Shown piece by piece: positions 2,247-7,235 of a stretch of 35,525 nucleotides of DNA; the first letter of the stretch is position 1; each line of letters starts with the position of its first letter. The position numbers and the translations under genes were made by a program. A model generated the notes under the pieces. The model was given only the letters and a program-made list of their open reading frames with translations. It did no database searches and was not told where the DNA came from. Source of the DNA: Prochlorococcus sp. AG-347-K15 (GTDB lineage Bacteria > Cyanobacteriota > Cyanobacteriia > PCC-6307 > Cyanobiaceae); contig QCCC01000012.1 of the NCBI GenBank assembly GCA_003281415.1, positions 1 through 35,525 of the forward strand, given 5' to 3'.

Positions 2247-3836
2247 TTAATATTTAATAAGTTTTTTAAAATTTAGCTCACTAATAATTTTTTTTAAAGC
2301 TGGTTTTAATAGGATTTGATAATTTTTCCAGCTAGATATCTCTTTTTTATTAATGATTCTGGAGTCGACATTTTTTGCAGCTTTTATTGTGCTTTTATCA
2401 AGATAAGGTCTAAAGTAATTAGAATTATTTTTCCACCCAAGCCAATTTATAAGATTCTCTATTTCATTTTGAGTATTAGTAACTAAATCATCGTAACTAA
2501 GGTAATAAATTTTAGAATTGAATTTCTTTTTATATCTTTCCATTAATTGATGAATATTTATCCAAAGATTAGCTGATTCGATGATTGAAGAGGAATAAGT
2601 ATTTTTATTTCCCATATTTCTTTTATAAATTTCTTTTATATTGTCTAATGGATTTCTATAACAATAAATAATTTTGGCAGAAGGCATTTGACTAGCAATT
2701 AGGCCAATATAGATTAAATTCATTGGAGTGGTTGTGCAAAAAATTGATTCTTCCGTATATTTAATGTCTAAATTATCTAAAAATAGTTTGTATAAGTTTG
2801 GATTATTTGATTTGCCTTTTGCATCTAGATATTGTTTTATAGCTCTTTGAAGTGTTGAGCTTTCACCGCATTTGATTAAATTATCATTGCCGGCAAGTAT
2901 GGATTCGGTGATTGTCTTACCAGATCTTGGCATGCCAACGATAAAAATTATAGTTTTATGAGGCTCTTTTTTCTCTATAGTGTTTTTATTAATTTCCCAG
3001 TCTCTTTCGAAACTTTTTATCCTTAGCATTATTGATTCATAATCTGATCCATAAAGCGCATTATTTATATTATTAGCTTTTACTAAATATTTAGAGGCTT
3101 GAGAAAAGTTAGATCTTTCTTCTAAGATATTTGCTCTTGCAAAGTAAATATCAATTAGATCTATTTCTTTCTGATTTACTAATATTTCTTCTGAAAATAA
3201 TTTATCTTTCCAGTTATTATTATTGGCATACTTTAAAAGAGAAAGTGAAAAATATGCCTTTGCTAGAAAAGGGTTTTTTTCAATAGCTTTACAAAGTGCT
3301 ATTTCTGCCTCATCTGATTTGTCAAGTTCTTCAAGAATATTTCCTAGATTACAATACGCTTCAGCTGAATTAGGATCCAATTTTATAGCTTTTCGCGTGT
3401 ATATTTCTGCTTCTTTAAGTTTGCCAAATTCTTTGAGAATATTTCCTAGATTAGAATACGCTTCAGCTAAATTAGGATCCAATTTTATAGCTTTTCGTGT
3501 GTATATTTCTGCTTCTTTAAGTTTGCCAATATTAATTAAAATACTTCCTATATTAAAATGATAATCCGCAAAATTAGGATCCAATTTTATAGCTTTTCGC
3601 GTGTATATTTCTGCTTCTTTTAATTTACCTTCATTAAGTAATATTACTCCATAATTAGAGTAAACTCTATGGTCATTGAAACCTTCATTTATGACGTGTT
3701 GATAATAATTAGTTGCTTCTTGAATACGCCCCTTTAGATGGAATTCAATTGCTTTATTAACTAATTCTTCTGTAGATGGTTCTTTTTTTTTATTATTGTT
3801 CTTTTTTGATTTATAAAGATCTTTAAAATTTTTCAT
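2247..3836 (-). CDS. TPR-repeat protein with C-terminal sulfotransferase domain (paralogue 1)
   Basis: A 529-aa protein. About five TPR units of 34 residues fill the N-terminal part (about 24-195), with the recurring block AEIYTRKAIKLDPN. A sulfotransferase domain follows: VGMPRSGKTITES (about 300-312) matches the 5'-phosphosulfate-binding loop, and IIYCYRNPLDNI (about 389-400) matches the 3'-phosphate motif. Such enzymes transfer sulfate from PAPS to an acceptor; the acceptor here is unknown, and TPRs probably bind a partner or substrate. The ATG at 3836 is preferred over an in-frame TTG at 3848, because the next gene's product starts the same way (MK-F-DLYKSKK). No signal peptide or membrane helix is seen. 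It is a tandem paralogue of the gene at 4193-6151. Three TPR units are nearly identical in DNA, a sign of recent expansion. Confidence 0.85.
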   Translation of the reverse strand: MKNFKDLYKSKKNNNKKKEPSTEELVNKAIEFHLKGRIQEATNYYQHVINEGFNDHRVYSNYGVILLNEGKLKEAEIYTRKAIKLDPNFADYHFNIGSILINIGKLKEAEIYTRKAIKLDPNLAEAYSNLGNILKEFGKLKEAEIYTRKAIKLDPNSAEAYCNLGNILEELDKSDEAEIALCKAIEKNPFLAKAYFSLSLLKYANNNNWKDKLFSEEILVNQKEIDLIDIYFARANILEERSNFSQASKYLVKANNINNALYGSDYESIMLRIKSFERDWEINKNTIEKKEPHKTIIFIVGMPRSGKTITESILAGNDNLIKCGESSTLQRAIKQYLDAKGKSNNPNLYKLFLDNLDIKYTEESIFCTTTPMNLIYIGLIASQMPSAKIIYCYRNPLDNIKEIYKRNMGNKNTYSSSIIESANLWINIHQLMERYKKKFNSKIYYLSYDDLVTNTQNEIENLINWLGWKNNSNYFRPYLDKSTIKAAKNVDSRIINKKEISSWKNYQILLKPALKKIISELNFKKLIKY

Positions 3837-4192: not shown

Positions 4193-6151
4193 TCATATAA
4201 TTTTTGATAAAATTCGTTCAACTGGTTTAAGCATTTCCATATAATTTATACTCTTATTAAGATAGGAAGAATTAAAATTTTTAAAATCATTTTTTGATTC
4301 AATGCTTCCTTGAGGTATTAGTTGAGGAGTTAGATATTTTTCATCATATTCCCATTTCAACCATTTTATTAATGACTTAATCTCTCTTTTAGGATCTTTA
4401 ATTAATTGATCATAGTTTAGAAAATAAATTTTATTTTTTAATTTATTTCTATATTCTTCCATTTGAGAATTAATAATCACCATTATTTTTGACAGGTCAA
4501 TTACAGAAGTTTTTAGGGTTAAATAATTTTGTAGGTTATATTTATATAGTTCAACAATATGATCTTTTGGATTTCTATAGCAATAAATTATTTTTGATTG
4601 TGGCATTTGATAAGCTATTAATCCCGTGTAAAGAATATTATTAGGTGATGTATGACTGGTATAATCAAATGCATCTAAATTTGTGTCTAATTTCTGAAGG
4701 AAAAATTCATATAAATTGGGTCTTGTGTAATCTTTAGATTTGTTTTTATATTCACTTTTTAAAAAATTATATCCTTCCGCAATTTGAGCCATCATATTTT
4801 TGTCGCCTCCTTTATCTGGATGATATTGCTTAGCAAGTTTCAGATAAGCCATTCTTATCTCTTTATATGTTGAGTAAATGCTAATTCCCAATCTCTTAAA
4901 AGCTATCTCAATATTTTTGTAATCTCTTATTACTTCTGAAATGCCTTTACGGTCTCCAAAGTTTTTAACTAAATTATTTTTAGATAATATCGACTCTACA
5001 GTGCTTTTACCTGATCTTGGTAAGCCAACAGTAAATATTGGAGTAGGAAGGTCTTTTAATGAATCTTCTATATAAGAAATATTTTTTATTTCTAATATAT
5101 ATGAATTATCTCTATTAAGAGATTCTTTGAAGCTCGTGAAATTGGATTTAAATTTTTTTCTGGTAATTAAATTAGCTATCCTAAACATTCTGAAACTTTC
5201 TTTATAGTCTTTTTTTCTTTCGAGAATATTTCCTCTAGCAAAGTAAATATCAGCTTTATTTGTCTTTTCTAGATTATCTTTACTTTTCAATATTTCTTCA
5301 GAGAATAAGTTTGTTATTAGATAATCATTTGCCTTAGGAATAATGAATAAGGACAGAACAAAATAAGCTTTAGCGAAATCAGGATTTATTTCAATTGCTT
5401 TGCGAAGAGATATTTCTGCCTTTTTTAAATTACCTAGATCTTTAAATAAAATTCCTAAATTTAAATGCGCTGGTGCGAAATCAGGATTTATTTCAATTGC
5501 TTTACGGTATGATAATTCTGCTTCTTGATGTTTACCAATATCACTTAATAAAATTCCAAGATTATAATGTGCATTTGCGAAATCAGGATTTAATTTAATT
5601 GCTTTGCGGTATGATAATACTGCTTCTTGATGTTTACCAATATCACTTAATACACTTCCAAGATTGTAATGTGCATTTGCGAAATCAGGATTTAATTTAA
5701 TTGCTTTGCGAAAAGATATTTTTGCTTCTTGAGGCTTGTTGATATCATGTAATATGATTCCAAGATTGTAATGTGCGTCTGCGAAATCAGGATTTATTTC
5801 AATAGCTTTTCTTGTGTGTAATTCAGCAGCTTGTGGTTCTTCAAGATCTATCAATAATTTTCCAAGATTAGAATGTGCGTCTGCGAAATCAGGATTTATT
5901 TCAATTGCTTTGTGATAAAACTTTGATGCTGCCTCTAGTTTGTTGAGACTTTGTAAAATAATTGCATAATTAGAAAATACTCTCTCATCCTTACATTTTT
6001 CACTGATTAATTTTTGATAATATTTTGCCGCTTCTTGGATATTACCTTTTAAATGAAACTGAATTGCTTTACTAATTATTTGTTTTTGAGTAGATTTTGT
6101 TTGTTTGTTTATTTTCTTTTTAGATTTATAAAGATCCCCAAAACCTTTCAT
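4193..6151 (-). CDS. TPR-repeat sulfotransferase with inserted DnaJ J-domain (paralogue 2)
   Basis: A 652-aa protein. Residues about 23-270 form seven or eight 34-residue TPRs with the recurring block KAIEINPDFA. A sulfotransferase domain follows: VGLPRSGKS at about 375-383 (5'-phosphosulfate loop of PAPS binding) and IIYCYRNPKD at about 521-530 (3'-phosphate motif). Between them, residues about 418-468 read as a J-domain: FKRLGI, then STYKEIRMAYLKLAKQY, the HPD tripeptide at 444-446, KGGD, and the helix III-like AQIAEGYNFL. J-domains stimulate Hsp70 ATPase through HPD. Paralogue 1 lacks this stretch, its spacing between the two motifs being about 55 residues shorter. The ATG at 6151 is preferred over a TTG at 6202 because MKGFGDLYKSKKK aligns with the paralogue's start. 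Substrate and Hsp70 partner are unknown. Confidence 0.85.
   Translation of the reverse strand: MKGFGDLYKSKKKINKQTKSTQKQIISKAIQFHLKGNIQEAAKYYQKLISEKCKDERVFSNYAIILQSLNKLEAASKFYHKAIEINPDFADAHSNLGKLLIDLEEPQAAELHTRKAIEINPDFADAHYNLGIILHDINKPQEAKISFRKAIKLNPDFANAHYNLGSVLSDIGKHQEAVLSYRKAIKLNPDFANAHYNLGILLSDIGKHQEAELSYRKAIEINPDFAPAHLNLGILFKDLGNLKKAEISLRKAIEINPDFAKAYFVLSLFIIPKANDYLITNLFSEEILKSKDNLEKTNKADIYFARGNILERKKDYKESFRMFRIANLITRKKFKSNFTSFKESLNRDNSYILEIKNISYIEDSLKDLPTPIFTVGLPRSGKSTVESILSKNNLVKNFGDRKGISEVIRDYKNIEIAFKRLGISIYSTYKEIRMAYLKLAKQYHPDKGGDKNMMAQIAEGYNFLKSEYKNKSKDYTRPNLYEFFLQKLDTNLDAFDYTSHTSPNNILYTGLIAYQMPQSKIIYCYRNPKDHIVELYKYNLQNYLTLKTSVIDLSKIMVIINSQMEEYRNKLKNKIYFLNYDQLIKDPKREIKSLIKWLKWEYDEKYLTPQLIPQGSIESKNDFKNFNSSYLNKSINYMEMLKPVERILSKII
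4748..4900 (-). other. J-domain coding insert inside the sulfotransferase domain
   Basis: This is the segment of the preceding gene that encodes the J-domain-like residues (helix I/II, HPD loop, helix III). The reading frame is continuous on both sides, and sulfotransferase sequence resumes afterwards (RPNLYEFFLQKLD, matching NPNLYKLFLDNLD in paralogue 1). It is therefore an internal insertion rather than a terminal fusion. Confidence 0.8.
5373..5914 (-). repeat. Six near-identical 102-bp TPR-coding DNA repeats
   Basis: The plus-strand string GCGAAATCAGGATTTA recurs starting at 5373, 5475, 5577, 5679, 5781 and 5883, exactly 102 bp apart (34 codons, one TPR). Bases between the anchors are also highly alike. 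Paralogue 1 has its own version, TAGGATCCAATTTTATAGC, at 3371, 3473 and 3575. This is coding DNA with recent unit duplication or gene conversion. Confidence 0.9.
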
Positions 6152-6521: not shown

Positions 6522-7235
6522 ATGAACGAGATTATTAAATTAAGTAGATCTACTGTTGAAAAATATCTTAGTTGTCCAAGATGTTGTGTACTTGACAAAA
6601 AATATAAAATAAAACCACCATCATTACCATTCACTCTAAATATAGCTGTAGATAATTTGTGTAAAAATGAATTTGATCACTACAGAAGAATTCAAGAACC
6701 TCATCCTTTATTTATTAAATATAGTATTGATGCTATTCCTTTTAAACATAAAGATTTAGAACGCTGGAGAAGTAATTTTCAAGGTATAAGGTATAAGTCT
6801 ATTGAACATCAGTATGATTTTGGCGGAGCCGTAGATGATGTTTGGCAGAAAAAAAATGGTGATCTTATTATTGTAGATGTAAAAGCAACATCAAGAAATA
6901 ATTTTGATTGGTCCGAAACTTTTAATAAATATGAATATGCAAAAGCTTATAAGAGACAATTAGAAATGTATCAATGGCTATTTACAAAGAATGGTTTTAC
7001 CGTTGCGAAAGAAGCTTATCTTTTATATTTTAATGGGAGGAAAAATGAAGCAGTATTTAATAATCAATTAAATTTTGATGTACATCTTATTAAAATAGAT
7101 TGTTCTACATCATGGGTAGAAAATAAGATAATTGATACGGTTAATTTATTACGTTCGGATATTTTCCCTAAACCATCATTAAATTGCGAATACTGCAATT
7201 ATTTAAAGAGGCGTTGGCAGTTATCAGTAACTTAA
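6522..7235 (+). CDS. PD-(D/E)XK nuclease-superfamily protein (RecB/Cas4-like), stand-alone
   Basis: A 237-aa protein with the motif order of the RecB/Cas4 branch of PD-(D/E)XK nucleases: an early helix (STVEKYLSCPRCC, 10-22), the metal-binding Asp at about 105 in GGAVDD, the D-x-K motif at 119-121 in IIVDVKAT, and the Q-x3-Y motif at 146-150 (QLEMYQW). Cys18, Cys21 and Cys22 near the N-terminus and Cys222/Cys225 near the C-terminus resemble, but do not exactly match, the four-Cys iron-sulfur pattern of Cas4/AddB. No cas gene, helicase or CRISPR array is nearby, so a CRISPR role is not supported. It probably acts on DNA ends in repair or recombination; this is inference. It starts at an ATG, divergent from the TPR-sulfotransferase. 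Confidence 0.8.
   Translation: MNEIIKLSRSTVEKYLSCPRCCVLDKKYKIKPPSLPFTLNIAVDNLCKNEFDHYRRIQEPHPLFIKYSIDAIPFKHKDLERWRSNFQGIRYKSIEHQYDFGGAVDDVWQKKNGDLIIVDVKATSRNNFDWSETFNKYEYAKAYKRQLEMYQWLFTKNGFTVAKEAYLLYFNGRKNEAVFNNQLNFDVHLIKIDCSTSWVENKIIDTVNLLRSDIFPKPSLNCEYCNYLKRRWQLSVT

Follow-up and report, generated by a model that had tools for sequence, protein, structure and literature searches.

Class C (type III) J-domain proteins include proteins that combine TPRs with a J-domain, such as DNAJC3 and DNAJC7. The helix IV/QKRAA region is not essential in every J-domain protein. In sulfotransferases, the 3'-phosphate-binding (3'-PB) residues at the RNPxDxxxS position are those that we take to contact the 3'-phosphate of PAPS. 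An excerpt of PMC9372746 outlines the 3'-PB contacts in sulfotransferases and describes PAPS binding in these enzymes as resembling ATP binding in nucleotide kinases. In TPST1, the catalytic residues are R79, E100, K159, and S286, and helices alpha-2 to alpha-4 lie at the dimer interface, as given in an excerpt of PMC5562738.

We analyzed a 35,525-nucleotide stretch of a Prochlorococcus contig (the window) in which an original prediction, made from the sequence alone, had placed a J-domain inside the sulfotransferase domain of a TPR protein, here called P0001. The nested J-domain of P0001 is real, unusual, and so far a singleton. Our tentative reading, to which we give a probability of roughly 45%, is that P0001 is a TPR-headed sulfotransferase that has degenerated and now serves to recruit Hsp70.

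Results

A J-domain within the sulfotransferase-like domain of P0001

Pfam profiles matched three parts of P0001 (Table 1): PF00515 (TPR_1) in 8 stretches (E 1.9e-58), PF13469 (Sulfotransfer_3) at residues 371 to 604 (E 1.1e-16; 62.2 bits, cut-off 27), and PF00226 (DnaJ) at residues 418 to 471 (E 3.2e-8; 34.0 bits, curated cut-off 27.8). The DnaJ match thus lies within the Sulfotransfer_3 range, as had been predicted, and the comparisons first proposed for the J segment and for its flanks, with J-domain and sulfotransferase profiles, respectively, both returned the expected family. The limits first given for the insert, residues of about 415 to 490, had to be redrawn to 414 to 470, with the gene read on the minus strand. 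The tandem TPR repeats are present and regular.

The PF00226 match covers profile positions 3 to 60 of 63. On its own, the J segment matches solved J-domains, best that of DNAJA3 (E 1e-7), with Escherichia coli DnaJ at about 1e-5. The helix IV/QKRAA region is missing, the residues past the profile match do not show this motif, and the Pfam table gives P0001 no DnaJ domain other than the J-domain itself. Aligned with 6 other clade members, the insert forms one block of 57 columns with both flanks aligned. The tandem paralogue P0002 aligns to P0001 on either side of the insert and has no J match in Pfam, in agreement with what had been said of it. The C terminus of P0001 is 7 to 15 alignment columns shorter than those of its relatives.

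Table 1. Coordinates in the window of P0001, its parts, and its tandem paralogue.
Feature	Positions	Strand	Remarks
P0001, TPR/J-domain-inserted sulfotransferase-like protein	4193..6151	minus	652 aa; start codon at 6151, stop ends at 4193
TPR superhelix of P0001, residues 22-267	5351..6088	minus	Pfam TPR_1, 8 stretches; modelled helical repeats
Sulfotransferase-like domain of P0001, N-terminal part to insert, residues 366-413	4913..5056	minus	Pfam, alignment
P-loop GLPRSGKS of P0001, residues 376-383	5003..5026	minus	5'-PSB loop changed to Walker A GxxxxGK[ST]
D400 of P0001, catalytic-base Glu position (TPST1 E100)	4952..4954	minus	Alignment; excerpt of PMC5562738
J-domain insert of P0001, residues 414-470, 57 aa	4742..4912	minus	Pfam, alignment, model
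HPD tripeptide of P0001, residues 444-446	4814..4822	minus	Loop between helices 429-442 and 451-468
Sulfotransferase-like domain of P0001, C-terminal part, residues 471-652	4196..4741	minus	Pfam, alignment, model, fold match
T501 of P0001, catalytic Lys position (TPST1 K159)	4649..4651	minus	Alignment
E534 of P0001, 3'-phosphate-binding Ser position (RNPxDxxxS)	4550..4552	minus	Alignment
P0002, tandem paralogue, 529 aa, P-loop GMPRSGKT, same clade, without J-domain	2247..3836	minus	

Elsewhere in the window, a PD-(D/E)XK nuclease-family protein (6522-7235; PF12705, E 4.5e-9; weak Cas4 match) lies upstream of the TPR gene pair, and an edge frame (59-538) matches just the C-terminal end of CbiD.

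Structure model and fold comparison

The full-length model of P0001, built on 60 aligned sequences, had a mean pLDDT of 88.1. Its TPR helices span residues 22 to 267, where most 10-residue blocks reach a pLDDT of at least 93. Helix alpha-2 of the sulfotransferase domain and helix I of the J-domain form a single modelled helix (residues 403 to 420), followed by helix II (429 to 442), the HPD in the loop after it, and helix III (451 to 468). The helix II-HPD-helix III hairpin, for which the original prediction had suggested looking, is therefore present in the model (pLDDT 88 over the full length). Block means of pLDDT across the J-domain are 69 to 84, lower than in most other folded regions, and the linker after it has 63; the next sulfotransferase helix is at residues 480 to 488. 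In the model, the J-domain is gained between helix alpha-2 and the helix preceding the catalytic-Lys strand. Judging from the order of the elements, it would fall in the region matching TPST1 alpha-2 to alpha-4.

In the fold search with the full-length model, OGT TPRs were among the top Foldseek rows. Since the TPRs swamped this search, the C-terminal half was modelled separately (mean pLDDT 83.3; J blocks 62 to 77). Its best fold match was human TPST1/TPST2 (5wrj_A; Z 18.9, rmsd 4.0, 231 residues aligned), and the next sulfotransferase kinds followed at Z 17.2 and 14.4. The fold tables of the C-terminal half contained no J-domain row; one domain filled these tables, so this is no argument against a J fold.

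Occurrence of the nested J-domain

Among 175 distinct TPR-sulfotransferase frames, the nested J-domain was found in one, P0001; none of the 166 frames without a Lys in the P-loop has a J match. With P0001 as the query, 250 of 266 genomes of the genus were matched, some of them through J-proteins only, as the query includes the J segment. The listed rows from these 266 genomes that lie outside the window are either two pieces omitting most of the J region or J-proteins alone. The J segment matched 260 of the 266 genomes, and its listed rows outside the window are frames of at most 364 aa, mostly J-proteins of ∼225 to 260 aa or ∼346 aa.

In none of the rows listed were a J-domain and a sulfotransferase joined in a family sample of 400 genomes, in 41 genomes of the genus of G538, or in a phylum sample of 386 genomes. 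Likewise, the same nesting was absent from the matches listed for genome contigs (the best 80 of 428 confirmed relatives were read) and viral contigs. Two rows of the phylum sample ran past the J region (G660, query 54 to 179; G743, query 59 to 168), and J matches fell in longer frames in G809 (428 aa; phylum sample) and G469 (402 aa; genus of G538). All four were rejected as a second nesting: they are DnaJ-type or, in G809, have a C-terminal J-domain, without a sulfotransferase P-loop.

J-domains at the end of longer chains were also seen. A locus of the own genome (L013, C1:75679-75828) and its relatives make up a ∼346-aa family with the J-domain at the extreme C terminus, HPD intact, found in many members of the genus; in a different cyanobacterial family, a protein of 428 aa (L233:1566-2849) likewise ends in a J-domain.

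A survey of Prochlorococcus and Synechococcus genomes for the insert position had been proposed at the outset, and P0001 was the only instance that emerged from the genomes and frames searched. The statement that the arrangement has no described family held up to the extent that searches of open-licence literature brought up no account of such nesting.

Origin of the J-domain

The donor of the J-domain was not found, and no near-identical source was present among the matches listed. Phage matches (20 of 50 records listed, many from large phages) are 37 to 47% identical to the J segment, and Prochlorococcus J-proteins 31 to 45% among the matches listed. Scored against local profiles, the segment reached 46.1 bits with short N-terminal J-proteins, 46.1 bits with other J-proteins that have a near-N-terminal domain, and 38.0 bits with the C-terminal J family. 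By these scores, none of the three local J-protein groups stands out as the donor. Direct repeats at the insert ends are only 8 bases long and uninformative.

We considered whether the J-domain piece was joined from elsewhere during assembly or amplification, a fault that the original prediction had itself raised. The source genome is a draft in 50 contigs, 75.5% complete, and the arrangement is known from one copy only. However, such a joint would require two in-frame junctions. A search of its own genome for another copy of the insert gave a DNA match of 23 bases at best (E 0.014), so the insert is unique there, and J segments listed elsewhere are only 31 to 47% identical. In codon use it does not stand out from the gene, with a mean log codon frequency of −0.899 compared to −0.848 (standard deviation 0.091) for same-length windows. 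Codon use and the missing second copy thus speak against an artefact, which we consider extremely improbable.

Altered active site of the P-loop-Lys clade

A quick, non-bootstrapped tree search over the 175 frames united P0001 and P0002 with six further cyanobacterial frames in a clade with an SH-aLRT support of 100 and a stem of 0.8. The clade extends over two genera in the genome grouping used, and one copy lies in a single-contig genome (G320). P0001 pairs with L121 from the same genus (support 80), and its branch of 1.39 is the longest in the clade, compared to a median end branch of 0.18.

We then compared residue counts between nine frames with a P-loop Lys, namely the eight clade frames and a Rhizobiales frame (L157), and the 166 others. 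Frames without a 5'-PSB motif were excluded (2 of 103 matches, and 2 of 86, one of the latter a plain J-protein). The nine were picked by their PSB Lys, so that residue is present by construction; the other counts are not. In all nine, the PSB loop has the Walker A form GxPRSGK[ST]. At the position equivalent to K159, all nine have Thr and all 166 others Lys. Glu occupies the 3'-PB position in eight of the nine, with Ala in L157, and in none of the 166 others, which have Ser in 153, Gly in 11, and Ala in 2. The Ser equivalent to S286 is kept in 2 of 9 frames, P0001 not among them, versus 164 of 166, with the equivalence inferred from a loose alignment there. The VRxP Arg is found in 0 of 9 versus 162 of 166, in a column where the clade aligns loosely and where a smaller alignment places an Arg in P0002. 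The PSB Arg (TPST1 R79; R379 in P0001) and the RNP Arg are present in all 175 rows. The catalytic-base Glu is retained in 8 of 9; P0001 is the sole member of the nine with Asp at the E100 position and with Ser in place of the GGW Trp. Among the 166 otherwise canonical frames, 4 likewise have Asp for E100, so this change alone is no proof of inactivity.

Four otherwise canonical TPR-sulfotransferases with Asp for the catalytic-base Glu (L081, L085, L091, and L097) group together in the tree. L157 (1941-3986, on Rhizobiales MAG contig CAIMLX010000182.1, another phylum) combines the P-loop Lys gain with a Lys-to-Thr change (DK to DT) and has Ala at the 3'-PB Ser.

The eight cyanobacterial rows count as one event. 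L157 falls outside their clade in the tree, on a long branch of unsure placement; it is the only candidate for another event, and its sequence makes a second origin of the Lys swap possible.

In the P0001 clade, the substitutions fall on positions through which a sulfotransferase recognizes the sulfate and the 3'-phosphate of PAPS. They suggest that the C-terminal TPST-like domain of P0001 has probably ceased to function as a PAPS sulfotransferase. They make an ordinary PAPS sulfotransferase unlikely, and with it the chaperone-coupled sulfation suggested by the original prediction, in which an active PAPS sulfotransferase would receive clients presented by the J-domain through DnaK. Although the fold is nearest to protein-tyrosine sulfotransferases (the 5wrj_A match above) and the PSB and RNP Arg residues are kept, the K159 equivalent and the 3'-PB Ser are changed in P0001, the S286 equivalent appears to be changed as well, and the catalytic-base Glu has become Asp. 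With PAPS-site residues replaced across the clade, we consider this proposal very unlikely.

A different possibility is that the clade is a re-tooled enzyme that still transfers a group onto a protein held by the TPRs; in P0001, the J-domain would then recruit DnaK so that the client is unfolded or released. The donor may have changed, for example to ATP, which nucleotide kinases of the same fold use, or the P-loop may have taken over the Lys once present at the K159 position. Gain of the P-loop Lys and loss of the K159-position Lys are strictly coupled (9 of 9 versus 0 of 166, the swap in L157 included), the P-loop now fits Walker A, and the lost 3'-phosphate contacts would suit a donor without a 3'-phosphate; the resemblance of PAPS binding to nucleotide-kinase ATP binding in the excerpt of PMC9372746 points the same way. 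Given the strict Lys swap, the catalytic-base Glu in 8 of 9, and a clade copy in a one-contig genome, a change of donor is the strongest rival to our reading, and the full support for the clade and its spread over two genera add to it. However, P0001 itself is without the catalytic-base Glu, the placement of L157 is unsure, and the eight cyanobacterial frames amount to one event. Overall, we find a re-tooled enzyme possible, if unlikely.

A more specific form of this idea is that, in marine picocyanobacteria, the clade moved its Lys into the P-loop, dropped the 3'-phosphate contacts, and exchanged PAPS for a donor such as ATP, while the nested J-domain of P0001 couples the new enzyme to DnaK. 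Were it true, unfolding and modification of the client would take place in one chain. We regard this combination as improbable.

Finally, the J-domain may have been inserted into a redundant, fast-evolving paralogue by evolutionary accident, in an early stage of decay, and have no J function. The nesting was seen in a single genome among the 266 of the genus searched, P0001 is on a long branch, several near-invariant residues are lost, and the C terminus is shortened. Since the flanks of P0001 evolve fast, drift fits as well. The frame is nevertheless open over 652 codons, the TPRs are regular, and the insert retains its HPD and an above-cut-off score, features that should erode in a short insert evolving neutrally. 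The original prediction had taken the intact HPD as an argument against decay; the HPD is indeed intact, but the argument is weak in a host domain evolving this fast. Accident or early decay is in our judgment a doubtful explanation.

Discussion

We return to the reading of P0001 as a degenerate sulfotransferase that recruits Hsp70. The TPRs, the sulfotransferase fold, the intact J-domain core, the clean insertion, and the altered PAPS-site residues come directly from sequence or model. Building on them, we propose that the TPR superhelix, and perhaps also the degenerate transferase groove, would bind and hold a client polypeptide, and that the protruding HPD hairpin of the J-domain would bring DnaK to it, sulfation having presumably been lost. 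P0001 may in this way be a J-protein of class C (type III) dedicated to a particular client. Weighing against this reading are the single sequence available, the fast-evolving flanks, the comparatively low model confidence of the J-domain, and the missing helix IV/QKRAA region. DnaK and further J-domain proteins are encoded in the genome that carries P0001; since these are found in almost any bacterium, their presence permits such a recruitment mechanism and does not support it.

Neighboring genes were listed for six clade loci (L121, L122, L214, L215, L216, and L217), and in two of the six the clade gene lies beside other TPR or protein-modifying genes. In L217 (2-2005), a TPR-GT41 gene (O-GlcNAc transferase-like) adjoins the Lys-P-loop TPR-sulfotransferase-like gene, and in L215 (104-1745) the clade gene has as neighbors a TPR gene and, after that, a 2OG-Fe(II) oxygenase gene. 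The remaining clade loci, where scanned, have glycyl-tRNA synthetase, VTT-domain protein, and dehydroquinase neighbors. This hints at TPR-headed protein-modifying enzymes that may swap catalytic modules while keeping the TPR head in common, OGT being the best-understood analogue.

The altered active site of the clade is a more general discovery than the nested J-domain. With two Lys-swapping positions (9 of 9 versus 0 of 166), the clade lends itself to testing whether a sulfotransferase has changed its donor or become a pseudo-enzyme. A J-domain nested in an enzyme fold would in turn mean that one insertion is enough to let a protein that modifies or holds a client recruit Hsp70.

Compared to known systems, P0001 shares with human TPST1/TPST2 (5wrj, 3ap1) the C-terminal fold, the PSB Arg, and the order of motifs. 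It differs from them in having Thr for K159, Glu for the 3'-PB Ser, Asp for the base Glu, and Lys for the PSB Ser/Thr, and its J-domain appears to sit where TPST has extra residues before K159. The TPR-sulfotransferases of Prochlorococcus and relatives (TPR_1 plus Sulfotransfer_3), often in tandem, have the architecture of P0001, whereas in the 166 frames that lack a P-loop Lys the catalytic Lys is invariant and the other counted PAPS-site residues are nearly always retained. O-GlcNAc transferase (TPR plus GT41) and bacterial FlmG (PMC7591256) resemble P0001 in placing a TPR superhelix before a transferase; their catalytic module is different, and they have no J-domain. With class C J-proteins, P0001 has in common the HPD J-domain core, the absence of any other DnaJ domain from the Pfam table, and repeats of a client-binding type in the same chain. 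Its J-domain, however, is not at an end of the chain as in those proteins but nested in a folded host of the sulfotransferase type.
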